The notes: generated from the letters alone by a model not told the origin. Shown: positions 358 to 10,821, counted from the first letter of the stretch. The stretch: DNA of 10,828 nucleotides from Verrucomicrobiota bacterium (GCA_023429545.1 JAEYUU010000461.1:1-10828); one strand, 5' to 3'. A program made the numbers and translations.

Positions 358-933
358 TCAGCCAAGGAAATGCTCCCAGTCCCGCACGCCGTGCAGGTTG
401 CGGATCACCATGGTTGAAGGCAGCGCCCGTGGTGTCACGGGCGTCTGGCGAAGGCGCAGTCCGGCTTCGTGCGGGAGGCGGCTGCCCTTGCGGGAATTCA
501 CCTCACGGTGTGCCAGTACGCAGTTGTCCCACGTGGACTTGCCGCCACGTGAGCGGGGCAGGACGTGGTCGATGTTGCCTTCGCCGGGCGCGAGTTTGCG
601 GCCGGTGTACTGGCACACGCCACCGTCACGCTGCCAGATGCCGCGCGCGCTGAAGCGCGGGCGCCGCAGCGGGACTCTGGCGTAGTTCGCCGAGACAATG
701 ACCGTGGGGATGCGCAGCGGACCGCGTGGGGTCTGCACGCACTGATCGTGCGCGCGTACTGGGAGCTGCATCCAGGCATCCCACGTCACGGGAACGATGG
801 ATGCATCATCCTGCACGTCGAGGCCCGTGGCCGCGCCGGTGGACAGCATGCAGAACGCCTCAGCAGGCGTCTTCACGTGAATGGCCTGCCAACATCGGTT
901 CAGCACGAGAACAGTTGGGAGATGGAGATGCAT
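358..933 (-). CDS. HNH endonuclease-family protein
   Basis: 191 aa. The C-terminal half carries an HNH fold signature: CQYTG at 107-111, the core NIDHVLPRSRGG at 120-131 with D122 and H123, DNCVLAH at 136-142, and the closing N146 and K149. This is a beta-beta-alpha metal nuclease module. Only one cysteine of the first knuckle (C107) is present, so a complete zinc ribbon is not formed. Residues 1-95 form an N-terminal extension without motifs I recognise. The ATG at 933 has no clear Shine-Dalgarno. The gene follows RtcB on the same strand after a 201-bp gap, so it may be read with the repair genes. HNH nucleases usually cut DNA, but the location beside RtcB makes an RNA-processing role thinkable; substrate unknown. 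Confidence 0.85.
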   Translation of the reverse strand: MHLHLPTVLVLNRCWQAIHVKTPAEAFCMLSTGAATGLDVQDDASIVPVTWDAWMQLPVRAHDQCVQTPRGPLRIPTVIVSANYARVPLRRPRFSARGIWQRDGGVCQYTGRKLAPGEGNIDHVLPRSRGGKSTWDNCVLAHREVNSRKGSRLPHEAGLRLRQTPVTPRALPSTMVIRNLHGVRDWEHFLG

Positions 934-2737: not shown

Positions 2738-3542
2738 TCAGTCGAGGAAGGCAACGTTCGCCATGGTGGGCGATTCGTTTTCGGTATTCATCAGCACTTG
2801 GTGCCAGTACGGCAGCGTAATGGTGGCGTGGTCGGGATGACGCACCATGCCCCGGGCATAGACACCCGGATTGCGACGCATCATGTTCCAGCCCCATGAT
2901 TTTGCCTTGGGATTGCTCGCAAGGATCCTCACGTACCGTGACTCCGCCACACCGTTGGGATGGCGGGAACACACATACACCTTCTCCCCACCCGTGCGAT
3001 AAAGCTGGGAGACCAAGTGAGGCTTGCCGCCCCCACGTTGAATGGGCTCATCGCACCGGACAAAGGTCGAGGTGACCGTCATGCCGGGACGAGGGCACAA
3101 AAAACCACTCACCCTGGCGGATGGACGCCGCATTGCGACGTCGCGCCCGCTCACTGGTGCGAAGGCCAGAACGGACTTCCGCGAGACGAATTGCCGTGGG
3201 CTTGAGGGCCTCTTTGGCCTGCGTCACCGTGGTGACTGCTTCGGGCACTGCTGCCACGAACCATTCGCGTTCGTCATGCCCGCAAAGAAAGCGATCCTTT
3301 CTCTGCGAGTTTTTGACGAGCAGGACGAGGTGCCGATCCTGCGGCTGCACATTGAGCACAGCCACATCGTGCGATGCTTCCACCGCTTCCGGCATACGCA
3401 GCTCGAAGATCTGACCATTTCGATCAGAACGAATGTCGAGAGCGTAGTCAGAGCGGTTGCCCCAGCGGGCCACATGCTGATGCACTAGCCGGAAACGTGC
3501 GCCCATGCGGGCGAACTGTTTTCCGATGGATTCAGTATTCAT
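2738..3542 (-). pseudogene. Conserved-looking gene of the repair cluster, split by a frameshift
   Basis: Two overlapping minus-strand frames make one protein. The first starts MNTESIGKQFARMGARF at ATG 3542 and runs out of frame to a stop at 3048; the second supplies the C-terminus and ends at 2738. The frames join naturally at an A6/T6 run (3099-3104): removing one T reads ...QGEWFFLCPRPGMTVT and gives about 267 aa. The C-terminal part (HPNGVAESRYVRIL, GMVRHPDHATITLPYWHQVLMNTE) looks like a conserved domain ending. I do not recognise a named family or a catalytic motif; it looks like a protein of RtcB neighbourhoods. The break may be a true homopolymer mutation, a sequencing error, or slippage. 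The tail after the break keeps good coding character, which favours an error or a very recent mutation. Confidence 0.7.
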
Positions 3543-3781
3543 GGATTCGAATTTGAAATTGCATTGTCCCCGAATCAGCACCCGTGAACGGATGAGATCG
3601 GGGAATGGGAGGCAGATTTGGAGTGCGTATGCATGGTGGTAATGGGTTGAGGGTTAATGAAAAATGGTCCGCTTGTGCCATGGCGGGCTTGCGCGTGGCA
3701 TCAGGGTGGAAATCCCGGAGTCCTGGTTGTGCTATGGTTCGTACCCCTTGGGCAGCATCGAACTCCAACTCAGACACTCAC

Positions 3782-5916: not shown

Positions 5917-6717
5917 TCACTGCACCTCGTCTGTGTCTTGAGCCGAGGCGGCATTTGAGCCCCGCCCACGCAAGGTTGGTAGGAAAGCAGACAGGTCATT
6001 CATCATGTAAGTCTGCCCGGCTCCCTTCGCCTCGAGCGTTTGCAGGAAGCGCAGCGTAGTAAGACCCGGGTGGCTTTCCATCAGGCGCGCGGTGTTCGCG
6101 AGATGACGGAGGGCCGCGGATTCTCCACGAGCGCGTTCCAGGGAAGCGTGGCTTTCCTGGCGCGCCTTGAGCGTGTCGCTGAAGGCCTTGCGGAGTTCGC
6201 CTGGCAGCATCACATCGCGCACTTCCACGGCATGCAGTTGCACGCCCACAGAATCCGCGATGGGTTGCACGGCAGCACGAAGGTCTTCGCCGATGGCCGC
6301 CCGCTGGTTGAGCAGAGCTTCCGCGCTGACAGCAGCCACGGAGGCACGCATGGCGGCCTGGGTCGCATGGTAGAGGTGGGTGATGTAGTTGTCCGCCACC
6401 AGCACGCTCTTCGCGGCATCCATGATTTGCACCGTAAGCACAGCGCTGAGTTTCACTGTGACATTGTCCGCAGTGAGCACTTCCTGTCCGGCGACTTGAA
6501 GCAGCGTCTTGCGAATGCCAATCACGTCGACGCGGTAGTTGCGACCCCAGCGGACATGACGTCCAGCGGGAAGGGTTTCCAAGAGCTTTCCGTCATGGTA
6601 GAGGAGGCCTACGCAGCCTTCGGTCAGCACGCATTCATAGCGATAGCGCGCGGAGATCACCATGGCGGGAAGCACGACCATGATGAAAGTAGTCAGAACG
6701 TAAGGGAAGTAGTCCAT
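5917..6717 (-). CDS. Slipin (SPFH/band 7 family membrane protein)
   Basis: 266 aa, normal for bacterial slipins. One N-terminal membrane segment (about residues 4-22) is followed by the SPFH/band 7 domain, with LLETLPAGRHVRWGRNYRVDVIGIRK and the typical QEVLTADNVTVKLSAVLTVQI (78-98). VEVRDVMLPGELRKAF (164-179) and a charged helical region (about 183-215) lead to the C-terminal LRFLQTLEA and NDLSAFLPTL. Slipins form membrane-bound oligomeric scaffolds and recur beside RtcB and RlaP in RNA-repair loci, where their task is not settled. Start ATG 6717; no clear Shine-Dalgarno. It is the first protein gene after the tRNA array on the same strand and precedes RlaP by 69 bp. Confidence 0.93.
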   Translation of the reverse strand: MDYFPYVLTTFIMVVLPAMVISARYRYECVLTEGCVGLLYHDGKLLETLPAGRHVRWGRNYRVDVIGIRKTLLQVAGQEVLTADNVTVKLSAVLTVQIMDAAKSVLVADNYITHLYHATQAAMRASVAAVSAEALLNQRAAIGEDLRAAVQPIADSVGVQLHAVEVRDVMLPGELRKAFSDTLKARQESHASLERARGESAALRHLANTARLMESHPGLTTLRFLQTLEAKGAGQTYMMNDLSAFLPTLRGRGSNAASAQDTDEVQ

Positions 6718-6973: not shown

Positions 6974-7048
6974 AGGTGAGCCCGCAGGGAGATGCACCCT
7001 GCTCTGCCGCTTAAGAGGCGGCTGCTTCGCTATCTAAGCTTCAGGCCC
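6974..7048 (-). tRNA. tRNA-Lys(CUU), altered elbow
   Basis: Acceptor 7042-7048 pairs with 6978-6984 (7 bp, two wobbles). D-stem GCTT/AAGC has loop AGATAGCG. Anticodon stem GCCGC/GCGGC has loop CTCTTAA with anticodon CUU at 7013-7015. T-stem CAGGG/CCCTG has loop TGCATCT. A73 matches Lys. The 3' end reads CCT, not CCA, so CCA would have to be made or repaired after transcription. Decodes AAG. Confidence 0.82.
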
Positions 7049-7065
7049 AAAAAATGAAAAGAAAT

Positions 7066-7141
7066 TGGTAGTCTCGACTGGACTTGCACCAGCACTCGCG
7101 GCGCTCTCGACGCCGTGCCTCTGCTGTTGGGCTACGCGACC
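7066..7141 (-). tRNA. tRNA-Leu(GAG), short variable arm, C33
   Basis: Acceptor 7135-7141 pairs with 7070-7076 except one G-A mismatch. D-stem is GCC/GGC, loop CAACAGCAGA. Anticodon stem CGGCG/CGCCG closes loop TCGAGAG, giving GAG at 7106-7108 with C instead of U at 33. The variable region is only 5 nt, unlike normal bacterial tRNA-Leu. T-loop TGCAAGT; A73 (a Leu identity base); CCA encoded. Decodes CUC/CUU if charged with Leu. Confidence 0.78.
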
Positions 7142-7171
7142 ATGAGAAATAAGATAGGAGTCATTCGCCCT

Positions 7172-7310
7172 GATTCCTGCAGGGGGCCCGCAAAAGGGAG
7201 CATGAGCTATCGGTCTGCCATCCCGTGACCCACAGTTTCCAGATCATGCTGGATAGTTGGTGATGGTGCCGGAGCTCGATGCCGTCGATCGCGAGGCCCC
7301 TGCAGGAATC
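7172..7310. repeat. Inverted repeat of about 16 bp in a tRNA linker
   Basis: GATTCCTGCAGGGG with trailing GCC (7172-7188) is the reverse complement of 7295-7310, with one extra G in the left arm. Each arm contains the 8-bp palindrome CCTGCAGG. About 106 nt lie between the arms with no tRNA and no convincing gene. It looks like a small insertion, such as a MITE-like element or a foldback RNA, placed between Leu(GAG) and Ser(GCU), where the linker is unusually long. Confidence 0.55.
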
Positions 7311-7341
7311 CAGGGGCGGGACAGACTGCACAAAAGGAAGA

Positions 7342-7435
7342 TGGCGGAAGAGGCGGGTGCTGCCCCGCAGTTCCCGATGAAGGGAACACCTGTTTAGCAA
7401 ACAAGCGCGACGACCTGGCTAGTCGCCTCTCTTCC
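7342..7435 (-). tRNA. tRNA-Ser(GCU), long variable arm, 6-nt T-loop
   Basis: Acceptor GGAAGAG/CTCTTCC is perfect; G73 and CCA are encoded. D-stem CGAC/GTCG has loop TAGCCAG. Anticodon loop TTGCTAA gives GCU at 7396-7398. The variable arm folds with a 6-bp stem GTTCCC/GGGAAC, as SerRS requires. T-stem GCGGG/CCCGC closes an unusual 6-nt loop, GCAGCA. Decodes AGC/AGU. Confidence 0.87.
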
Positions 7436-7447
7436 ATGATGTGAAAT

Positions 7448-7526
7448 TGGTGGTGCCCGCGACGGGAGTCGCGCCCGCACTACACGAGGTTTGAGCTCGC
7501 TGCCTCTGCTATTGGGCTACGTGGGC
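7448..7526 (-). tRNA. tRNA-Leu(CAA), short variable arm, encoded CCACCA
   Basis: Acceptor GCCCACG/CGCGGGC has one A.C mismatch. D-stem is GCC/GGC, loop CAATAGCAGA. Anticodon stem GCGAG/CTCGT has loop CTCAAAC, giving CAA at 7491-7493. Variable region GTAGT is 5 nt (type I, unusual for Leu). T-loop CGCGACT. A73 is followed by CCACCA; in other bacteria tandem CCACCA is known as a decay mark on unstable tRNAs, here it is genomic. Decodes UUG. Confidence 0.82.
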
Positions 7527-7534
7527 GAAAGATT

Positions 7535-7792
7535 ATGACACGAAGGATTGACGAACGGTCATCTAGAAGTTGGTTGAGAGCGATGTCGAAGAGCGACTCA
7601 GAAAGTAGCCAGAGCCGGACTTCGAAGATCGCCTTTGTCGTGGCGACATTCTTGCTCGCTGGGTATGTGGGACTATATCTCTTGGTGCGCCCGGTGTTGT
7701 ATGGACCCAGGTCGAATATTGGCCCTGATGCGTTCTGGCAGCTCATACTCTTTGAGCCATGCCAGCGAATTGAGAACCTGCTTTTCAATTAG
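7535..7792 (+). CDS. Possible small single-span membrane protein inside the array
   Basis: An 85-aa frame on the strand opposite the tRNAs fills the gap between Leu(CAA) and Leu(CAG) almost exactly: it starts 8 nt past one tRNA and stops 4 nt before the next CCA. A hydrophilic Ser/Arg-rich N-terminus precedes one hydrophobic helix (about 32-51, IAFVVATFLLAGYVGLYLLV), then a C-terminal GPDAFWQLILFEPCQRIENLL segment. An alternative start at 7583 gives 69 aa with GAGAG just upstream. No family recognised. Chance is possible at this size, but the tight fit and membrane helix favour a gene. Confidence 0.45.
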   Translation: MTRRIDERSSRSWLRAMSKSDSESSQSRTSKIAFVVATFLLAGYVGLYLLVRPVLYGPRSNIGPDAFWQLILFEPCQRIENLLFN

Positions 7793-7796
7793 AAAA

Positions 7797-7872
7797 TGGT
7801 CCCGGCGGCAGGAATTGCACCCGCACTACATCCGTTCTGAGCGGACTGTCTCTGCTGTTGGACTACGCCGGG
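7797..7872 (-). tRNA. tRNA-Leu(CAG), short variable arm
   Basis: Acceptor CCCGGCG/CGCCGGG is perfect; A73 and CCA are encoded. D-stem GTC/GAC, loop CAACAGCAGA. Anticodon stem GTCCG/CGGAT, loop CTCAGAA, anticodon CAG at 7837-7839. Variable region GTAGT, identical to Leu(CAA), so type I. T-stem GCGGG/CCTGC, loop TGCAATT. The three Leu members share D-arm and variable features, suggesting one ancestor within the array. Decodes CUG. Confidence 0.87.
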
Positions 7873-7884
7873 GAAAAGTGAAAG

Positions 7885-7960
7885 TGGTACTCCCGACAGG
7901 ATTTTCGCCTGCAACCTCCGCGTTCGAAGCGCGGCGCTCGATACATTGAGCTTCGGAAGC
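7885..7960 (-). tRNA. tRNA-Arg(UCG) with likely T19-A56 elbow pair
   Basis: Acceptor 7954-7960 pairs with 7889-7895 (two wobbles). D-stem GCTC/GAGC, loop AATGTATC. Anticodon stem CCGCG/CGCGG, loop CTTCGAA, anticodon UCG at 7925-7927. T-stem GCAGG/CCTGT, loop CGAAAAT. C56 is A here, and the D-loop offers T at 19 in place of G, a compensating change. A73 and CCA are encoded. Decodes CGA. Confidence 0.85.
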
Positions 7961-7984
7961 ATTGATGATGAAACGAACATAAAA

Positions 7985-8059
7985 TGGTGCGCCAGGACGG
8001 TTCTGCCCCGCCGGCCTCCGCCGTGTCAGGACGGTGCTCTCCTATTGAGCTACTGGCGC
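7985..8059 (-). tRNA. tRNA-Val(GAC), altered elbow
   Basis: Acceptor GCGCCAG/CTGGCGC is perfect; A73 and CCA are encoded. D-stem GCTC/GAGC, loop AATAGGA, which aligns as A18-G19-G20. Anticodon stem CCGTC/GGCGG, loop CTGACAC, anticodon GAC at 8025-8027. T-stem GGCGG/CCGTC, loop GGCAGAA. Decodes GUC/GUU. Confidence 0.87.
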
Positions 8060-8069
8060 GAATGGAAAG

Positions 8070-8142
8070 CCGCCCCGGATGGATTTGCACCATCAACCTC
8101 CCGGGCCAAAGCCGGACGCTCTGCGAATTGAGCCACAGGGCT
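8070..8142 (-). tRNA. tRNA-Gln(UUG), no adjacent CCA
   Basis: Acceptor AGCCCTG/CGGGGCG has six pairs and an open 1-72 position (A.G); an easily melted first pair suits GlnRS. D-stem GCTC/GAGC, loop AATTCGCA. Anticodon stem TCCGG/CCGGG, loop CTTTGGC, anticodon UUG at 8107-8109. T-stem GATGG/CCATC, loop TGCAAAT. G73 is followed by CTTTCCA, so CCA is displaced by 4 nt. Decodes CAA. Confidence 0.82.
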
Positions 8143-8188
8143 GTTCAAGCATGTGTAGGATGACATAAGCTGAATGAACGATGAGGAA

Positions 8189-8263
8189 TGGTCGGGCACC
8201 CCGGTGTTGCTCCGGGTCTCTCGCCGATCCGAACGGCGCGGATTGCTGTCTTCCTCGTGCCCC
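8189..8263 (-). tRNA. tRNA-Pro(CGG), altered elbow
   Basis: Acceptor 8257-8263 pairs with 8193-8199 except G1.G72. D-stem GGA/TCC, loop AGACAGCAA. Anticodon stem CGGCG/CGCCG, loop TTCGGAT, anticodon CGG at 8229-8231. T-stem CCCGG/CCGGG, loop AGCAACA. A73 and CCA are encoded. The D-arm closely matches Pro(GGG). Decodes CCG. Confidence 0.85.
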
Positions 8264-8290
8264 AGAAATTGAATAGAGTGAAAAGCGAAG

Positions 8291-8360
8291 TGGAGTCACG
8301 GGACTCGCACCCCGATCCGCGCCATGCCGTGACGCTGTCCTGCTTTTGAACGATGACCCC
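8291..8360 (-). tRNA. tRNA-Ala(GGC) with G3.U70, C33, no CCA
   Basis: Acceptor GGGGTCA/TGACTCC contains the G3.U70 wobble that defines Ala identity; A73. D-stem GTTC/GGAC, loop AAAAGCA. Anticodon stem GCGTC/GGCGC, loop ACGGCAT, anticodon GGC at 8326-8328 with C33. The T-arm reads CGGGG-TGCGAG-TCCCG with a 6-nt loop, or 4 bp with 8 nt. The 3' end continues CTTC, so CCA must be added. Decodes GCC/GCU. Confidence 0.8.
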
Positions 8361-8375
8361 GTGTGGTTATAGAAA

Positions 8376-8450
8376 TGGTCGGGCCAGCCGGTAACGCACC
8401 GGCTATCTCAAGTCCCCCAGACTTGCGGATTGCTTTCTTCCTCTGGCCCG
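8376..8450 (-). tRNA. tRNA-Pro(GGG), altered elbow
   Basis: Acceptor CGGGCCA/TGGCCCG is perfect with C1-G72, typical of bacterial Pro; A73 and CCA are encoded. D-stem GGA/TCC, loop AGAAAGCAA. Anticodon stem CAAGT/ACTTG, loop CTGGGGG, anticodon GGG at 8416-8418. T-stem GCCGG/CCGGC, loop TGCGTTA. Decodes CCC/CCU. Confidence 0.87.
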
Positions 8451-8461
8451 TGTGAGTGAAA

Positions 8462-8537
8462 TGGACGCGCGACCCGGACTCGCACCGGGTAAGCCGATTT
8501 TGCAGACCGACGGCTCGACGACTTTACCTTTCGCGCG
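8462..8537 (-). tRNA. tRNA-Cys(GCA) with U73
   Basis: Acceptor CGCGCGA/TCGCGCG is perfect, with U73 (the Cys identity base) and CCA. D-stem GGT/GCC with an 11-nt loop in which C18-G19 is the best match. Anticodon stem TCGGT/ATCGG, loop CTGCAAA, anticodon GCA at 8501-8503. T-stem CCCGG/CCGGG, loop TGCGAGT. Decodes UGC/UGU. Confidence 0.86.
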
Positions 8538-8562
8538 GTGAATGAATGGAATGAAACGAAAT

Positions 8563-8638
8563 TGGGGAGACCAACCGGGATTGCACCGGTACCACAGCGT
8601 TCACAGGGCTGGATGCGTACTATTACACCATGGTCTCC
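8563..8638 (-). tRNA. tRNA-His(GUG) with G-1 and C73
   Basis: Acceptor GAGACCA/TGGTCTC is preceded by an extra G opposite C73, the G-1:C73 pair unique to tRNA-His; CCA is encoded. D-arm GTGT/ACGC or GTG/CGC, core AATAGTA. Anticodon stem CAGCC/CGCTG with one C.C mismatch, loop CTGTGAA, anticodon GUG at 8602-8604. T-stem ACCGG/CCGGT, loop TGCAATC. Decodes CAC/CAU. Confidence 0.88.
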
Positions 8639-8685
8639 ATTGAAGATGGGGGTGAGTGATACGAATACTCGAAACATATCTGTGA

Positions 8686-8760
8686 TGGTGGGCCGCCACG
8701 GTGCTGCCCCGTGTTCTGCGGATTAAAAGCCCGCTGCATCGCTGGCAATGCTTGCGGCCC
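8686..8760 (-). tRNA. tRNA-Lys(UUU), altered elbow
   Basis: Acceptor GGGCCGC/GCGGCCC is perfect; A73 and CCA are encoded. D-stem GCAT/ATGC, loop TGCCAGCG. Anticodon stem GCGGG/TCCGC, loop CTTTTAA, anticodon UUU at 8725-8727. T-stem CACGG/CCGTG, loop GGCAGCA. Decodes AAA (AAG by wobble). Differs strongly from Lys(CUU), so the two are not a recent duplication. Confidence 0.88.
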
Positions 8761-8772
8761 ACGAAGGGAAAA

Positions 8773-8868
8773 TGGCGGAGACCAGTGGACATGCTCCACT
8801 ACCCGCGAGGGATCGCGGATTCATCCGGCTTCCAACCGGTGGCGGCACGCTGGTCCGCTTTGGTCTCC
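8773..8868 (-). tRNA. tRNA-Ser(GGA), long variable arm
   Basis: Acceptor GGAGACC/GGTCTCC is perfect; G73 and CCA are encoded. D-stem GCGG/CCGC, loop ACCAGCGTG. Anticodon loop TTGGAAG on a 4-bp stem (the fifth position is A.A), anticodon GGA at 8831-8833. The variable arm folds as CCGCGA-TCCC-TCGCGG. T-stem AGTGG/CCACT, loop AGCATGT. Decodes UCC/UCU. Confidence 0.87.
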
Positions 8869-8885
8869 TCTAAGTAAGGAGAAAT

Positions 8886-8961
8886 TGGCGGCCCTGGTTG
8901 GATTCGCACCAACAACCTCCCGGGTCAGAGCCGGGCACTCTACTGGTTGAGCTACAGGGCA
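8886..8961 (-). tRNA. tRNA-Gln(CUG) with open 1-72 pair
   Basis: Acceptor TGCCCTG/CAGGGCC has six pairs and a U1.C72 mismatch; the other Gln tRNA here also has an open first pair, matching GlnRS preference. D-stem GCTC/GAGT, loop AACCAGTA. Anticodon stem CCGGG/CCCGG, loop CTCTGAC, anticodon CUG at 8926-8928. T-stem GTTGG/CCAAC, loop TGCGAAT. G73 and CCA are encoded. Decodes CAG. Confidence 0.87.
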
Positions 8962-8980
8962 ATTGAGTGTTGAAACGAAA

Positions 8981-9056
8981 TGGATCCTCCGGCCGGAGCT
9001 GCCCCGGCATGGGTCGCTTTACGAGAGCGGTGCATTGCTGACTCTGCCACGGAGGA
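8981..9056 (-). tRNA. tRNA-Thr(CGU), altered elbow
   Basis: Acceptor TCCTCCG/CGGAGGA is perfect; U73 and CCA are encoded. D-stem GCA/TGC, core AGTCAGCAA. Anticodon stem CCGCT/AGCGA (outer C.A), loop CTCGTAA, anticodon CGU at 9021-9023. T-stem GCCGG/CCGGC, loop GGCAGCT. It is the only Thr tRNA in the window; decoding of ACC, ACU and ACA would need members outside it. Confidence 0.86.
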
Positions 9057-9071
9057 ATTGATCGGGGAAAG

Positions 9072-9148
9072 TGGTGCTCCCGCGAGGACTTGCACCTCGA
9101 GCCTCGGTCTTCGCAGAACCGTGTGCAGTCTCGTTACACCTCGGGAGC
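9072..9148 (-). tRNA. tRNA-Arg(GCG), altered elbow
   Basis: Acceptor GCTCCCG/CGGGAGC is perfect; A73 and CCA are encoded. D-stem GTGT/GCAC, loop AACGAGACT. Anticodon stem CGGTT/GACCG, loop CTGCGAA, anticodon GCG at 9112-9114. T-stem CGAGG/CCTCG, loop TGCAAGT. Most bacteria read this box with an A34 (inosine) tRNA, so a G34 Arg tRNA is itself unusual. Decodes CGC/CGU. Confidence 0.87.
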
Positions 9149-9165
9149 TTTTGGGAATGAAAATT

Positions 9166-9239
9166 TGGAGCGCCATGCCGGTACTGCCCGGCACTCTCAA
9201 CTTGGAAGGATGACGTGCTCGCTACTACACCAATGGCGC
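9166..9239 (-). tRNA. tRNA-Gly(UCC) with U73 and 6-nt T-loop
   Basis: Acceptor GCGCCAT/ATGGCGC is perfect; U73 matches bacterial Gly; CCA is encoded. D-stem GTGT/GCAC, loop AGTAGCGA. Anticodon stem TCATC/GTTGA with one T.T, loop CTTCCAA, anticodon UCC at 9204-9206. T-stem GCCGG/CCGGC closes a 6-nt loop, GCAGTA. Decodes GGA/GGG. Confidence 0.85.
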
Positions 9240-9253
9240 ATGGATAAACGAAA

Positions 9254-9329
9254 TGGTCGCTGAACCAGGAATCGCACCTGAATCTGCCGATCTTCAGTCG
9301 GCCGCATTGACTGACTCTGCCATTCAGCG
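9254..9329 (-). tRNA. tRNA-Phe(GAA), altered elbow
   Basis: Acceptor CGCTGAA/TTCAGCG is perfect; A73 and CCA are encoded. D-stem GCA/TGC, core AGTCAGTCAA. Anticodon stem GCCGA/TCGGC, loop CTGAAGA, anticodon GAA at 9293-9295. T-stem TCAGG/CCTGG, loop TGCGATT. Decodes UUC/UUU. Confidence 0.88.
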
Positions 9330-9338
9330 GGAAAGGAA

Positions 9339-9412
9339 TGGTCCCTCCACACGGTATCGCGCCGTGGTCTTCCGCTTATCGGGCGGGTGCTCTACTATTG
9401 AGCTACAGAGGG
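9339..9412 (-). tRNA. tRNA-Ile(GAU) with C33
   Basis: Acceptor CCCTCTG/TGGAGGG pairs with two wobbles; A73 and CCA are encoded. D-stem GCTC/GAGC, loop AATAGTA. Anticodon stem CCCGC/GCGGA (outer C.A), loop CCGATAA, anticodon GAU at 9378-9380, with C instead of U at 33. T-stem CACGG/CCGTG, loop CGCGATA. Decodes AUC/AUU. Confidence 0.85.
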
Positions 9413-9422
9413 AATCATAAGA

Positions 9423-9496
9423 TGGTCGCCTGAAACGGTAATGCTCCGCTGTCTTCCGGATGTGAGCCGGTTGCTCTCCTTTTGAGCTATCAGGCG
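9423..9496 (-). tRNA. tRNA-Val(CAC), altered elbow
   Basis: Acceptor CGCCTGA/TCAGGCG is perfect; A73 and CCA are encoded. D-stem GCTC/GAGC, loop AAAAGGA, the same A18-G19-G20 arrangement as Val(GAC). Anticodon stem has four pairs plus A.A, loop CTCACAT, anticodon CAC at 9462-9464. T-stem AGCGG/CCGTT, loop AGCATTA. Decodes GUG. Confidence 0.86.
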
Positions 9497-9520
9497 TGAA
9501 GGATGGATGGCTGTTGAAAA

Positions 9521-9595
9521 TGGCACCCGCACCCGGATCTGCCCCGGGATTTTCCGATAGAAAGTCGGATGTGCTGACTGTTGCACCATGCGGGC
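9521..9595 (-). tRNA. tRNA-Glu(UUC), altered elbow
   Basis: Acceptor GCCCGCA/TGCGGGT is complete with a G1.U72 wobble; G73 (as in bacterial Glu) and CCA are encoded. D-stem GTGC/GCAC, loop AACAGTCA. Anticodon stem TCCGA/TCGGA, loop CTTTCTA, anticodon UUC at 9560-9562. T-stem CCCGG/CCGGG, loop GGCAGAT. Decodes GAA/GAG. Confidence 0.87.
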
Positions 9596-9615
9596 GTGAT
9601 GAAGGACTCACGAAA

Positions 9616-9704
9616 TGGCGGAGCACCAGGGACTCGCACCCCGAATTCCACGAAGTGGAACAGCGGTTTTCAAGACCGCGTCCTCGTCTGGCCGGACATG
9701 CTCC
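9616..9704 (-). tRNA. tRNA-Ser(UGA), long variable arm
   Basis: Acceptor GGAGCAT/GTGCTCC is complete; G73 and CCA are encoded. D-stem GTCC/GGAC follows the acceptor directly, without the usual two linking bases; loop GGCCAGACGA. Anticodon stem GCGGT/ACCGC, loop CTTGAAA, anticodon UGA at 9670-9672. Variable arm TTCCAC-TTC-GTGGAA. T-stem CGGGG/CCCTG, loop TGCGAGT. Decodes UCA/UCG. Confidence 0.87.
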
Positions 9705-9723
9705 AAAATGAACGATTAGAAAT

Positions 9724-9797
9724 TGGCTGCCCGCCGTGGACTCGCACCACGACAATCCGCTTAACAGGCGGTCATGCTCCTTTGACATCAGCGGGCA
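9724..9797 (-). tRNA. tRNA-Asn(GUU), altered elbow
   Basis: Acceptor TGCCCGC/GCGGGCA is perfect with U1-A72, and G73 fits bacterial Asn; CCA is encoded. D-stem ATG/CAT, core AAAGGA (A18-G19 by alignment). Anticodon stem has four pairs plus A.A, loop CTGTTAA, anticodon GUU at 9763-9765. T-stem CGTGG/CCACG, loop TGCGAGT. Decodes AAC/AAU. Confidence 0.86.
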
Positions 9798-9817
9798 ATT
9801 GAAATGAAAACATCGCA

Positions 9818-9943
9818 AGGTACTCCCGGCAGAGCCGAGCGAAGCGAGACAGCCGCTCACTTGTCTTCAAACTTTAAGCGGCAACTTGCACCTGCATATC
9901 TCCGTTTAGAAGACGGATGCCTCATCTCTTCGACCACGGGAGC
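9818..9943 (-). tRNA. tRNA-Arg(UCU) interrupted by about 50 nt in the T-stem
   Basis: Acceptor 9937-9943 pairs with 9822-9828 (G1.U72 wobble, otherwise complete). D-stem GTC/GGC, loop GAAGAGATGA. Anticodon stem TCCGT/ACGGA, loop CTTCTAA, anticodon UCU at 9908-9910. T-loop TGCAAGT (9884-9890) follows T-stem GCAGG, but the 3' half of the stem lies about 50 nt away: 9829-9832 restores it. The insert (about 9833-9882) contains a GCCGCT/AGCGGC hairpin. A73 is followed by CCT. Without removal of the insert this gene is broken. Confidence 0.75.
9833..9882 (-). repeat. 50-nt insert inside tRNA-Arg(UCU)
   Basis: The insert separates the two halves of an otherwise normal tRNA at about position 61/62. 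It carries a 6-bp terminal hairpin (GCCGCT with AGCGGC) and a GAGCGAAGCGAG-type block near the acceptor side. Limits are uncertain by a few bases. It could be an intron-like sequence or a small palindromic insertion element. Confidence 0.55.
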
Positions 9944-9968
9944 GTGATGAGAGGCGGTGATAAGAATA

Positions 9969-10045
9969 TGGTCGCGCGCCCCGGTTCTGCCCCGGGCATC
10001 TACCTCGTCCCAAACGAGGCGGGTTCGATAGCTCCCTCGCACGCG
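9969..10045 (-). tRNA. tRNA-Pro(UGG), altered elbow
   Basis: Acceptor CGCGTGC/GCGCGCG has C1-G72 and one wobble; A73 and CCA are encoded. D-stem GGG/CCC, loop AGCTATCGAA (C18-G19 is the best alignment). Anticodon stem CCTCG/CGAGG, loop TTTGGGA, anticodon UGG at 10010-10012. T-stem CCCGG/CCGGG, loop GGCAGAA. Decodes CCA; with CGG and GGG the Pro box is complete. Confidence 0.86.
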
Positions 10046-10078
10046 ATAAAGTAAAACGAAGGGGATGCTGGATGAAAT

Positions 10079-10155
10079 TGGCGGCCTGTGCGGGCATTGC
10101 TCCCGCGACCTTCCGCTCGACAGGCGGTTGCTCTTCGTGGCTGAGCTAACAGGCC
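10079..10155 (-). tRNA. tRNA-Asp(GUC), altered elbow
   Basis: Acceptor GGCCTGT/ACAGGCC is perfect; G73 matches Asp; CCA is encoded. D-stem GCTC/GAGC, loop AGCCACGAA (C18-G19). Anticodon stem has four pairs plus A.A, loop CTGTCGA, anticodon GUC at 10119-10121. T-stem GCGGG/CCCGC, loop AGCAATG. Decodes GAC/GAU. Confidence 0.87.
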
Positions 10156-10164
10156 GTATAAAAT

Positions 10165-10251
10165 TGGTGCGCCGTTCAGGTACTGCCCCTGATTGGCCGG
10201 GTAGGCAGTGGTTTTACGGACCACTTCGTATCTTTAGCGAGCCACCGGCGC
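10165..10251 (-). tRNA. tRNA-Tyr(GUA), type II, C33
   Basis: Acceptor GCGCCGG/ACGGCGC has six pairs and one G.A; A73 and CCA are encoded. D-stem TCG/CGA, loop CTAAAGATA. Anticodon stem GTGGT/ACCAC, loop CCGTAAA, anticodon GUA at 10215-10217 with C33. The longer variable region forms a small GCC/GGC stem, as expected for bacterial Tyr. T-stem TCAGG/CCTGA, loop GGCAGTA. Decodes UAC/UAU. Confidence 0.84.
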
Positions 10252-10268
10252 ATGTGGTGACATGAAAT

Positions 10269-10341
10269 TGGTTGCGGGACGTGGCGTCGCACCACGATGA
10301 GGAAGCTTATGAGACTTCCGCGGTTGCTCAACCTTCCCGCA
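10269..10341 (-). tRNA. tRNA(CAU), Met or Ile2, reduced D-arm
   Basis: Acceptor TGCGGGA/TCCCGCA is perfect; A73 and CCA are encoded. Only 16 nt lie between acceptor and anticodon stem, folding as GGTT-GAGC-AACC, a very small D-arm. Anticodon stem GAAGT/GCTTC, loop CTCATAA, anticodon CAU at 10309-10311. T-stem CGTGG/CCACG, loop TGCGACG. It lacks the initiator features (unpaired 1-72, three G-C pairs above the loop). It may be elongator Met or a lysidine-type Ile tRNA. Confidence 0.82.
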
Positions 10342-10366
10342 ATTGATGAGATCGGCCGATTGAGAT

Positions 10367-10441
10367 TGGTGGACCGCCAGGGAGTTGCACCCTGCTCTCC
10401 CGCGTGCGAGGCGGGTGACCTTCTGGATGATCGAGCAGCCC
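10367..10441 (-). tRNA. tRNA-Ala(CGC) with G3.U70
   Basis: Acceptor GGGCTGC/GCGGTCC is complete with G3.U70, the Ala identity pair; A73 and CCA are encoded. D-stem GATC/GGTC, loop ATCCAGAA. Anticodon stem CCCGC/GCGGG, loop CTCGCAC, anticodon CGC at 10406-10408. T-stem CAGGG/CCCTG, loop TGCAACT. Decodes GCG. Confidence 0.87.
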
Positions 10442-10448
10442 ATGAAAC

Positions 10449-10524
10449 TGGTAGCGGAAGCGGGACTCGAACCCGCGTGTAAGCGGCTTATGAGGCCGCT
10501 GCCTTACCCCTTGGCTATTCCGCA
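10449..10524 (-). tRNA. tRNA-Met(CAU), canonical elbow
   Basis: The only full-length member with normal elbow bases: T-loop TTCGAGT and D-loop AAGGGGTAA containing GG. Acceptor 10518-10524 pairs with 10453-10459 except U1.U72; A73 and CCA are encoded. Anticodon stem GCGGC/GCCGC, loop CTCATAA, anticodon CAU at 10490-10492. The mismatched 1-72 pair recalls initiator tRNA, but the GGG/CCC run of the initiator anticodon stem is absent, so elongator Met (or Ile2) is more likely. It would be picked up as an ordinary tRNA. Confidence 0.9.
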
Positions 10525-10536
10525 GTTGGAAAATTT

Positions 10537-10637
10537 ATGATTTACGATTGATGATTTTTGATTGGAGGTCTGCAATCACAATGCGCCTTTGCATGGCCGC
10601 ATCGGACCGAAATCAAAAATCACACATCACAAATCAT
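10537..10637. repeat. AT-rich imperfect inverted repeat (MITE-like)
   Basis: Arm 10537-10563 matches the reverse complement of 10611-10637 at 22 of 27 positions, including a perfect 12-bp core (TGATTTTTGATT). The 47-nt centre is GC-richer and can form small hairpins. The AT content differs sharply from the surroundings. It occupies the linker between Met(CAU) and Trp, with no gene inside. Confidence 0.6.
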
Positions 10638-10645
10638 CAATGATT

Positions 10646-10719
10646 TGGCACGGCGTCCCGGTGCTTCCCCGGTCCCACAGAGTTTTGGAGACTCCGTTGC
10701 GCAGGCTGGCGCCCGCCGT
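10646..10719 (-). tRNA. tRNA-Trp(CCA), compact D-arm, A56
   Basis: Acceptor ACGGCGG/ACGCCGT has six pairs and one G.A; G73 (as in bacterial Trp) and CCA are encoded. D-arm GCGC/GCGC, loop CAGCCT, without the usual linker bases. Anticodon stem GGAGT/ACTCT, loop CTCCAAA, anticodon CCA at 10686-10688. T-stem ACCGG/CCGGG with one mismatch, loop GGAAGCA: position 56 is A, and a T is available at 19. Decodes UGG. Confidence 0.83.
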
Positions 10720-10747
10720 GTTCTCTTTTTGTATGAGAGATGAAAAT

Positions 10748-10821
10748 TGGAGCGGCCAGCCGGAATTGCACCGGCATTCCCTGACTGGCGTTCAGGCGTC
10801 CTGCTCTTGGACGATGGCCGC
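10748..10821 (-). tRNA. tRNA-Gly(GCC) with U73 and C33
   Basis: Acceptor GCGGCCA/TGGCCGC is perfect; U73 matches Gly; CCA is encoded. D-stem GTCC/GGAC, loop AAGAGCA. Anticodon stem CCTGA/TCAGG, loop ACGCCAG, anticodon GCC at 10787-10789 with C at 33. T-stem GCCGG/CCGGC, loop TGCAATT. The last member in the window; decodes GGC/GGU. Confidence 0.87.

Follow-up and report, generated by a model that had tools for sequence, protein, structure and literature searches.

Along one strand of a 10,828-base stretch of DNA from a Verrucomicrobiota bacterium (GCA_023429545.1, JAEYUU010000461.1:1-10828; the whole stretch is called the window below) there are 34 genes for transfer RNA (tRNA)-like molecules. 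They run from 10821 to 6974 on the minus strand and are followed by genes for a slipin, a predicted RNA-repair nucleotidyltransferase RlaP, two small frames, a predicted RNA ligase RtcB and a predicted HNH endonuclease. In kind, the locus is a long tRNA array (L-array), real and conserved: its 34 genes occupy 3.9 kilobases, and an L-array is a group of about 20 or more closely spaced tRNA genes covering most isotypes (a definition partly drawn from PMC5966550 and PMC12803027). Almost all its members depart from the canonical T-loop, and in most of them position 18 of the D-loop is changed as well.

The genes were identified by a structural scan together with reading by eye, which bore out the claim of a preliminary description of this sequence that 34 tRNAs serve all 20 amino acids, with CAU as the only repeated anticodon. 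The acceptor stems, said there to be near-perfect, contain six or seven of the seven pairs in all 33 uninterrupted members (Ser-GCU and Gly-UCC by eye), and CCA is encoded in 30 of the 34 genes. The departure of 33 T-loops from the TTCRA pattern was also found as described. TTC is absent from 33 of the 34 loops, of which 31 have seven nucleotides with G55 and two (Ser-GCU, Gly-UCC) have six nucleotides reading GCAG; the T-loop of Met-CAU (10449-10524) is canonical. The T arms of Ser-GCU, Gly-UCC, Ala-GGC and Arg-UCU, where the script parse is unreliable, were read by eye.

A strict scan, requiring at least four of five T-stem pairs, at least five of seven acceptor pairs and four of five anticodon pairs, finds 27 tRNAs in the array, as against 0.95 on average when the bases of this stretch were shuffled 20 times; with such thresholds, strongly decayed members are not counted. 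ARAGORN finds 13 of the 34 window tRNAs, the Rfam tRNA model 14 at its gathering score, and an array-tuned covariance model, built from 39 sequences of which 18 are window genes, finds 31. Given the low recovery by ARAGORN and Rfam, such sets are probably undercounted. The genes of the array are as follows.

10748-10821, minus strand: tRNA-Gly(GCC), T-loop TGCAATT, C33
10646-10719, minus strand: tRNA-Trp(CCA), T-loop GGAAGCA (G55, A56), elbow rule (see below) not clearly followed
10449-10524, minus strand: tRNA-Met(CAU), sole canonical T-loop (TTCGA), D-loop with GG
10367-10441, minus strand: tRNA-Ala(CGC), G3-U70 retained
10269-10341, minus strand: CAU tRNA, D arm unusually short, T-loop TGCGACG
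10165-10251, minus strand: tRNA-Tyr(GUA), long variable arm, C33
10079-10155, minus strand: tRNA-Asp(GUC), T-loop AGCAATG, base 18 is C
9969-10045, minus strand: tRNA-Pro(UGG), T-loop GGCAGAA, base 18 is C
9820-9943, minus strand: tRNA-Arg(UCU), T arm broken by an insertion on its 3' side, partial Rfam match
9724-9797, minus strand: tRNA-Asn(GUU), T-loop TGCGAGT
9616-9704, minus strand: tRNA-Ser(UGA), long variable arm, T-loop TGCGAGT
9521-9595, minus strand: tRNA-Glu(UUC), T-loop GGCAGAT
9423-9496, minus strand: tRNA-Val(CAC), T-loop AGCATTA
9339-9412, minus strand: tRNA-Ile(GAU), T-loop CGCGATA, C33
9254-9329, minus strand: tRNA-Phe(GAA), T-loop TGCGATT
9163-9239, minus strand: tRNA-Gly(UCC), six-nucleotide T-loop GCAGTA
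9072-9148, minus strand: tRNA-Arg(GCG), T-loop TGCAAGT
8981-9056, minus strand: tRNA-Thr(CGU), T-loop GGCAGCT
8886-8961, minus strand: tRNA-Gln(CUG), T-loop TGCGAAT
8773-8868, minus strand: tRNA-Ser(GGA), long variable arm, T-loop AGCATGT
8686-8760, minus strand: tRNA-Lys(UUU), T-loop GGCAGCA
8563-8637, minus strand: tRNA-His(GUG), C73, encoded G before position 1, T-loop TGCAATC
8462-8537, minus strand: tRNA-Cys(GCA), U73, T-loop TGCGAGT
8376-8450, minus strand: tRNA-Pro(GGG), T-loop TGCGTTA
8291-8360, minus strand: tRNA-Ala(GGC), T stem of four base pairs, C33, no encoded CCA
8189-8263, minus strand: tRNA-Pro(CGG), T-loop AGCAACA
8069-8142, minus strand: tRNA-Gln(UUG), T-loop TGCAAAT, no encoded CCA, base 18 is C
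7985-8059, minus strand: tRNA-Val(GAC), T-loop GGCAGAA
7885-7960, minus strand: tRNA-Arg(UCG), T-loop CGAAAAT, family variable at both elbow pairs
7797-7872, minus strand: tRNA-Leu(CAG), short variable arm
7451-7526, minus strand: tRNA-Leu(CAA), short variable arm
7342-7435, minus strand: tRNA-Ser(GCU), six-nucleotide T-loop GCAGCA
7066-7141, minus strand: tRNA-Leu(GAG), short variable arm, C33
6974-7048, minus strand: tRNA-Lys(CUU), T-loop TGCATCT, CCU in place of CCA

The edge of the array is seven bases from the end of the window, and thus the array may be longer. The insertion that disrupts the T arm of Arg-UCU (9820-9890) is rich in palindromes. An inverted repeat of 20 nucleotides (90% complementary, 99 nucleotides apart) at 7172-7310, between two tRNA genes, resembles a mobile insert of small size, and another inverted repeat is at 10533-10641.

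The elbow of the array tRNAs

The search of related genomes for arrays with an altered T-loop, proposed in the preliminary description, yielded 14 further arrays in Verrucomicrobiota. Relatives of RlaP led to arrays in the loci L002, L003, L004, L005 and L009. The covariance model, applied to 387 Verrucomicrobiota genomes, found evident arrays in at least ten, which is a lower bound, as at most 12 candidates were scored per genome. Nine of these ten are L141-L149 and the tenth is in the genome of L004, so that with the window there are 15 arrays. They contain 269 strictly parsed tRNAs, for which encoded CCA and a score of 14.5 were required in addition to the pairs listed above.

Ordinary tRNAs have a contact between G18 and pseudouridine 55 and a G19-C56 pair (PMC4810234, PMC7912444), and U55 is among the most conserved tRNA bases (PMC7912444). 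Among the 269 array tRNAs, 255 have G55 and 14 have U55, whereas C56 is kept in 258 and the pair G53-C61 in all 269. The shared elbow change of the preliminary description holds for the T-loop; however, it is only half of the change, as position 18 of the D-loop changes together with it in most members. The elbow rule is that A18 occurs with G55, G18 occurs with U55, and base 19 is complementary to base 56. The 19-56 pair stays complementary even as U-A, C-G or A-U.

This rule was checked in two intervals of the D-loop. In the narrow interval, which leaves out A14-G15 and A21-G22, it is followed by 250 of the 269 tRNAs (permutation mean 215), and in the wide interval, where the dinucleotide test can be satisfied by A14-G15, by 265 (permutation mean 240); in both cases none of 10,000 permutations was as good. 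Within the narrow interval, AG is present in 227 of the 246 array tRNAs with G55-C56, and GG in 12 of 12 with U55-C56. The 23 array tRNAs with unusual bases at 55-56 all fit in both intervals. When the D arm has a fixed length (15 nucleotides, four pairs), positions are placed without guessing; in such tRNAs A18-G19 accompanies G55-C56 in 46 of 49 cases, and G18-G19 accompanies U55-C56 in 14 of 14 housekeeping tRNAs.

The two elbow pairs can be followed in individual families, best of all in Arg(UCG). The Arg(UCG) tRNAs of different lineages have the D-loop and T-loop combinations GG/TTC, GA/TTT, GT/TTA, AC/TGG, AT/TGA or AT/CGA, and AG/TGC; the 18-55 pair is thus G-U or A-G, and the 19-56 pair is G-C, A-U, U-A or C-G. 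The Arg(UCU) tRNA has GG/TTC in L002 and AG/TGC in L003 and L005. Two other models of the contact were rejected. Watson-Crick pairing of the two loops as a helix (GCC against GGC), which a few members suggest, fails for most, and crossed pairing of 18 with 56 and 19 with 55 is at odds with Arg(UCG), whose changes track 19-56 and 18-55. The 54-58 pair of the 269 tRNAs is T-A in 158, G-G in 36, A-T in 33, C-A in 24, C-C in 7, A-A in 6 and T-T in 5.

Housekeeping tRNAs do not share these loops. Thirty unique housekeeping tRNAs were taken from six relatives as best-scoring hits, not as full sets, and every one of them has U55, C56, U33, U8 and T54-A58; the genomes of these relatives give 38-58 tRNA hits each, and the 30 retrieved are canonical. 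In a second control, 20 of 30 model hits lay outside arrays, and the 19 of them that were parsed all have TTC and a D-loop with GG. The same T-loops in the host's main tRNA genes, which the preliminary description had named as an outcome that would count against it, are thus absent from the housekeeping sample drawn from relatives. TruB, the enzyme making pseudouridine 55, is present in 12 of the 14 array-bearing genomes: these cells own the enzyme, yet most array tRNAs lack its target. Judging by the fit of the 269 tRNAs, the permutations and the fixed-length test, the elbow appears to have been rebuilt under selection rather than lost by decay.

The rule has a possible laboratory precedent. 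Doyon, Zagryadskaya, Chen and Steinberg are reported to have obtained in 2004 active Escherichia coli suppressor tRNAs with random loops, in which position 18 and position 55 were either G18/U55 or A18/G55 (the 'specific purine trap'). In such a trap, purine 18 of the folded RNA would be stacked between purine 57 and the 54-58 pair. The arrays follow the same 18/55 rule, with exceptions, but the suppressors came from laboratory selection in a random library, whereas here the rule is used naturally and by a whole set. If the reported rule is right, the array elbow would be one known to permit decoding. The literature searched, with most subscription papers outside it, does not name A18-G55 in natural tRNA arrays. 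As far as this literature goes, the set-wide coupled elbow and its packing with repair genes are new.

Some other features of the arrays would suit working tRNAs. Between orthologues, compared only where at least 6 of 17 stem pairs are identical, there are 1,400 double changes in stems (406 expected if changes were independent), of which 1,294 are still paired, in comparisons that share ancestry. In homologous arrays the stems, the anticodons and the altered T-loop are all preserved; random decay, the other contrary outcome foreseen in the preliminary description, is not seen, and its statement that this is no random pseudogene cluster stands. Charging signals are mostly retained. G3-U70 is present in 7 of 7 Ala tRNAs and in 2 of the 262 other array tRNAs, and the discriminator base is the usual one in Cys (12/12), Asn (9/9), Gln (10/10), Trp (8/8), Ser (13/14) and Asp (8/9).

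The CAU tRNA with a very short but stable D arm (10269-10341) recurs at L002:4579-4651, L145:8866-8938 and L148:8751-8823, that is, in both groups of arrays distinguished below; its position 73 is C in L002, L145 and L148 and U in L003 and L005. This RNA may be something other than an ordinary Met tRNA. Bacterial Leu tRNAs usually have long variable arms. The window has Leu tRNAs with short arms, and so do L150-L153, which are the Nostoc arrays and a mycobacterial array with two such tRNAs; long arms are found in Leu tRNAs of L145 and L148 and in one of the mycobacterial array.

RNA-repair genes, phage-like DNA and known arrays

The array of the window is followed by these genes; the RNA-repair genes among them, like the D-loop change, are absent from the preliminary description.

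5917-6717, minus strand: slipin / band-7 (SPFH) protein, PF01145
5065-5847, minus strand: RlaP, predicted RNA-repair pol-beta nucleotidyltransferase, PF10127 (E-value 1.1e-85)
2738-3154 and 3048-3581, minus strand: two small overlapping frames with relatives in L009 and L141
1135-2556, minus strand: predicted RtcB RNA ligase, PF01139 (E-value 1.1e-85)
358-933, minus strand: predicted HNH endonuclease, PF13395, related to HNH proteins beside other tRNA arrays

An aldo/keto reductase gene lies among the repair genes on the plus strand. The active-site stretches DIACRM and SHGAGRVMSR of the window RtcB align with the RtcB of Pyrococcus horikoshii (1uc2), and thus an RtcB with its catalytic stretches has an RlaP gene nearby. 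The five nearest relatives of the window RlaP are 82-89% identical to it, those of Prosthecobacter and Chthoniobacter, both Verrucomicrobiota, 75% and 73%, which makes an origin in this phylum likely. The small frames (2738-3581) have relatives at L009:11007-11813 and L141:7828-8652 and match no family in Pfam, NCBIfam, PADLOC or PHROGs. PADLOC gives weak HNH matches in the window and nothing else, a scan of genome contigs with the slipin protein found no relative, and no phage genes were recognised within the window.

Similar genes accompany most of the other arrays, and two groups can be distinguished. In the first group (the window, L002-L005, L009, L141, L144) the array is near RtcB and HNH genes, and RlaP is near it in six of the eight (not in L141 and L144). 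In the second group (L143, L145, L146, L148) the array adjoins genes for HNH, a sigma-70-type factor and a distant RtcB, 33-34% identical to that of the window; L143 and L145 contain a slipin gene and two RlaP genes besides. L147 has RlaP and HNH genes beside the array and no RtcB in the stretch. In L002, an RNA ligase gene (PF09414) is inside the array. Among the nine arrays found by tRNA alone, in stretches of 20 kilobases, HNH occurs in seven, RtcB in six and RlaP in three, and seven of the nine have at least one of the three nearby.

The sigma-70-type factor gene directly follows HNH in the second group (L145:12463-13185, L143, L146, L148) and may be a candidate controller of the array. 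An uncharacterized protein of about 220 residues is encoded beside or inside arrays in L145 (13409-14074), L148, L144, L009 (6153-6698) and L004 (9045-9563), with 25-51% identity. Loci of Pseudomonas in which RlaP has one or two tRNA-like genes close by were considered and set aside as a different kind, since their loops are canonical TTC. In L029, L035, L044 and L050 (Pseudomonas) and L046 (Aliikangiella), tandem TTC tRNA-like genes with odd anticodon arms are upstream of slipin, RtcB and RlaP; these are possibly sensors or substrates of the adjacent repair operons.

Arrays with the swapped elbow also occur in virus sequences. When IMG/VR was scanned with a pattern for pairs of adjacent altered-loop tRNAs, it gave at least 120 stretches, with at least two records contributing two stretches each. 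The pattern demanded G55, so the share of G55 is no measure of prevalence, and the D-loop was outside the pattern. Among the matches listed, AG is found in 499 (wide interval) or 488 (narrow) of 506 tRNAs with G55-C56, and GG in 572 or 567 of 585 tRNAs with U55-C56; 12 of the latter have AG without GG in the wide interval. With a fixed-length D arm the rule holds for 116 of 117 (G55) and 107 of 109 (U55), and among 53 tRNAs with another base 56, 49 (wide) or 47 (narrow) fit. Nine of the stretches listed have at least eight tRNAs and are at least 90% G55.

Sixteen virus records, hand-picked among the 120 stretches listed, were tested for phage genes. In nine, a gene for a terminase or a T4-like capsid scored above the cut-off, and five have RtcB; in three records with the T4-like capsid gene, G55 is present in 26 of 26, 18 of 19 and 9 of 9 tRNAs. 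The record L283 has the order terminase (GpA), array, slipin, RtcB, HNH, portal gene; its slipin, RtcB and HNH are 66%, 81% and 77% identical to those of the window, and its array contains 33 tRNA-like genes by a relaxed scan, 30 of them with G55. No RlaP was found in L283. In L284, genes for HNH (43%), an array, RtcB (59%) and RlaP (57%) are on a record with a GpA terminase. Thus such blocks occur in phage-like DNA. The preliminary description had contrasted the set with phage tRNA islands, and this contrast is not supported: the same elbow is found in phage arrays, and two related cassettes, one of them close, are in phage-like DNA. The neighbours of two bacterial loci whose flanks were checked (L145, L002) look chromosomal.

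The distribution of arrays is patchy: they are present in L002-L005 and L009, and none was found in the stretches examined of L001, L006, L007 and L008. This patchiness and the two cassettes in phage-like DNA point to horizontal transfer for arrays of this kind, among which the window itself may be included.

The known systems share parts of this arrangement. In Anabaena, according to PMC10272220, the repressor TrcR binds and represses an array of 26 tRNAs, which is silent until translation stress activates it and whose tRNAs are functional, and deletion of TrcR raises rtcB, a slipin and an HNH gene, the same gene families as here. The L-arrays of Anabaena (the trn operon of PCC 7120) and Nostoc are like the window in that a single array holds additional tRNAs for many isotypes; an HNH gene adjoins the array of each of three Nostoc plasmids, as here, and the Leu tRNAs are short-armed too. 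However, TTC is present in 21 of 23, 18 of 23 and 17 of 21 scan hits of the three Nostoc stretches, and G55 in only two, two and three, as against 33 of 34 loops without TTC here; these few G55 tRNAs carry AG in the D-loop. The partner genes are scattered in Anabaena and clustered in the window.

Mycobacterial and phage tRNA array units, like the array here, have twenty to thirty-odd tRNAs. The HNH endonuclease is the most widespread companion of mycobacterial arrays (PMC5966550), and an HNH gene adjoins the array in one mycobacterial plasmid. The mycobacterial array L153, however, has a canonical elbow, with TTC in 27 of 31 scan hits and a single G55-like hit outside the array, and no RtcB or RlaP relative was found in its stretch. 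Jumbo-phage tRNA clusters, whose repair enzymes are RtcB, Rnl and RlaP, resemble the window in that RlaP and RNA ligases accompany tRNAs in one genome (PMC7824862). Most IMG/VR records listed mix canonical and swapped elbows, whereas the window is nearly all swapped, in one block with repair genes.

Possible function of the locus

We suggest that the locus is a mobile translation-rescue kit that combines replacement and repair of tRNAs against tRNA damage, and put the probability of this at roughly 0.55. What can be read from sequence here is the gene content, the position of arrays beside two distant RtcB types, the phage-like cassettes and the coupled elbow. The trigger would be an attack on the tRNA pool, that is, tRNA cleavage by a toxin, a phage or a host defence. 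RtcB and RlaP would mend the cut tRNAs, and the array would meanwhile supply replacements, its RNAs being made, charged and used by ribosomes. The swapped elbow would hold the L-shape even though these tRNAs could no longer receive the modifications at U55 and G18; a burst of unmodified tRNA would then work at once, unread by factors needing U55 or G18. This release from modification 55 and from readers of U55 and G18 is the least supported step of the mechanism. Among the uses proposed in the preliminary description, a reserve translation set is thus the best reading, although the contrast with phage islands was not supported.

A number of observations weigh against the rescue kit. The set, called complete in the preliminary description, is so for amino acids but not for codons: by simple wobble, no tRNA of the window reads ACA, ACC, ACU, AUA, CUA, UUA, GCA or GUA. 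Besides the interrupted Arg-UCU, three further members are slightly damaged. A promoter consensus scan of the window gave nothing beyond chance. The elbow rule is broken in the narrow interval by 19 of the 269 array tRNAs; 8 of the 19 misses among the 246 tRNAs with G55-C56 read CG, including the window Asp and Pro-UGG. In the strict set of the window, 3 of 27 (Pro-UGG, Asp and the short-armed CAU tRNA) do not fit, base 18 being C or unplaceable, and the window Trp (G55, A56), which is below the parse score and outside the 269, gives no clear fit. C33 occurs in 37 of the 269 array tRNAs, most heavily in Ile(GAU) (10/14) and Leu(GAG) (5/6), and U8 is missing in 88, whereas U33 and U8 are invariant in the 30 housekeeping tRNAs. 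The discriminators of Gly (A73 in 12/13), His (A73 in 8/10) and Phe (G73 in 6/13) are unusual, although in the window itself Gly (U73) and His (C73) have ordinary-looking ones. Of the 83 tRNAs annotated in five named phages, 80 were parsed, and just one of these has G55, again together with AG. Finally, the link to repair genes is incomplete. No repair gene accompanies two of the 15 arrays (L142, L149) within the stretch examined, L001, L006, L007 and L008 have repair genes without an array in theirs, and 6 of the 15, counting the window, were reached by way of the window or RlaP, so that their RlaP linkage is not independent.

Alternatively, the arrays could be phage-style cargo that counters defence and has no role for the host, with changes of the elbow or anticodon loop making the tRNAs uncuttable. 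Such a role is a published hypothesis for phage tRNAs (PMC10264068) and is presumed for mycobacterial arrays (PMC12803027), and it agrees with the two related cassettes on records with GpA terminase, one of which (L283) also has a portal gene, and with the nearly all-G55 arrays of the three T4-like-capsid records. However, the flanks of L145 and L002 look chromosomal, no phage gene was recognised in the window, and the named phages have mostly canonical elbows; we consider this explanation unlikely.

One more possibility, a rather improbable one, is that the array RNAs are decoys baiting anticodon nucleases or tRNA-binding toxins, for which charging and translation would be unneeded. To a decoy, C33 and relaxed U8 would matter little; some discriminators are unusual, and each window anticodon is single except CAU. 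But charging signals are retained in most isotypes, with G3-U70 nearly confined to Ala, CCA is encoded in most window genes, and the upkeep of a coupled elbow would be needless for a decoy of the anticodon loop.

A decaying island of former phage or plasmid tRNAs, drifting unused and with elbow changes tolerated, is disfavoured and less credible still. The interrupted Arg(UCU), the two six-nucleotide T-loops, the T stem of four base pairs, C33 and the loss of U8 look like decay; however, orthologues keep their stems through double changes and keep the elbow rule, and drift would not alter positions 18 and 55 jointly. It is very improbable that these are tRNA-like RNAs used outside translation, as substrates or guides for RtcB and RlaP or as sensors of RNA damage. 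In favour of such a use, repair genes often adjoin the arrays, U33 and U8 are not strictly kept, and a CAU RNA with a very short D arm is found in several arrays; the 20 isotypes and the usual identity elements in most speak against it.

Three questions become testable with this finding: is elbow modification still required once the elbow pair has changed, what makes phage and mobile tRNAs drift away from the pattern of cells, and do spare tRNAs form one unit with RNA-repair enzymes? Dozens of natural tRNAs that drop U55, mostly with a matching base 18, indicate a second elbow lock of evolution, used by a whole set. More tentatively, and with the odds rather against it, the arrays may amount to a tRNA set parallel to the usual one and founded on another natural elbow, in which A18-G55 replaces G18-pseudouridine 55. 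Such a set would move between phages and bacteria with its own repair enzymes and would be unrecognisable to attackers and quality control that read the elbow. If this is true, it is a translation system that dispenses with the most conserved tRNA modification.

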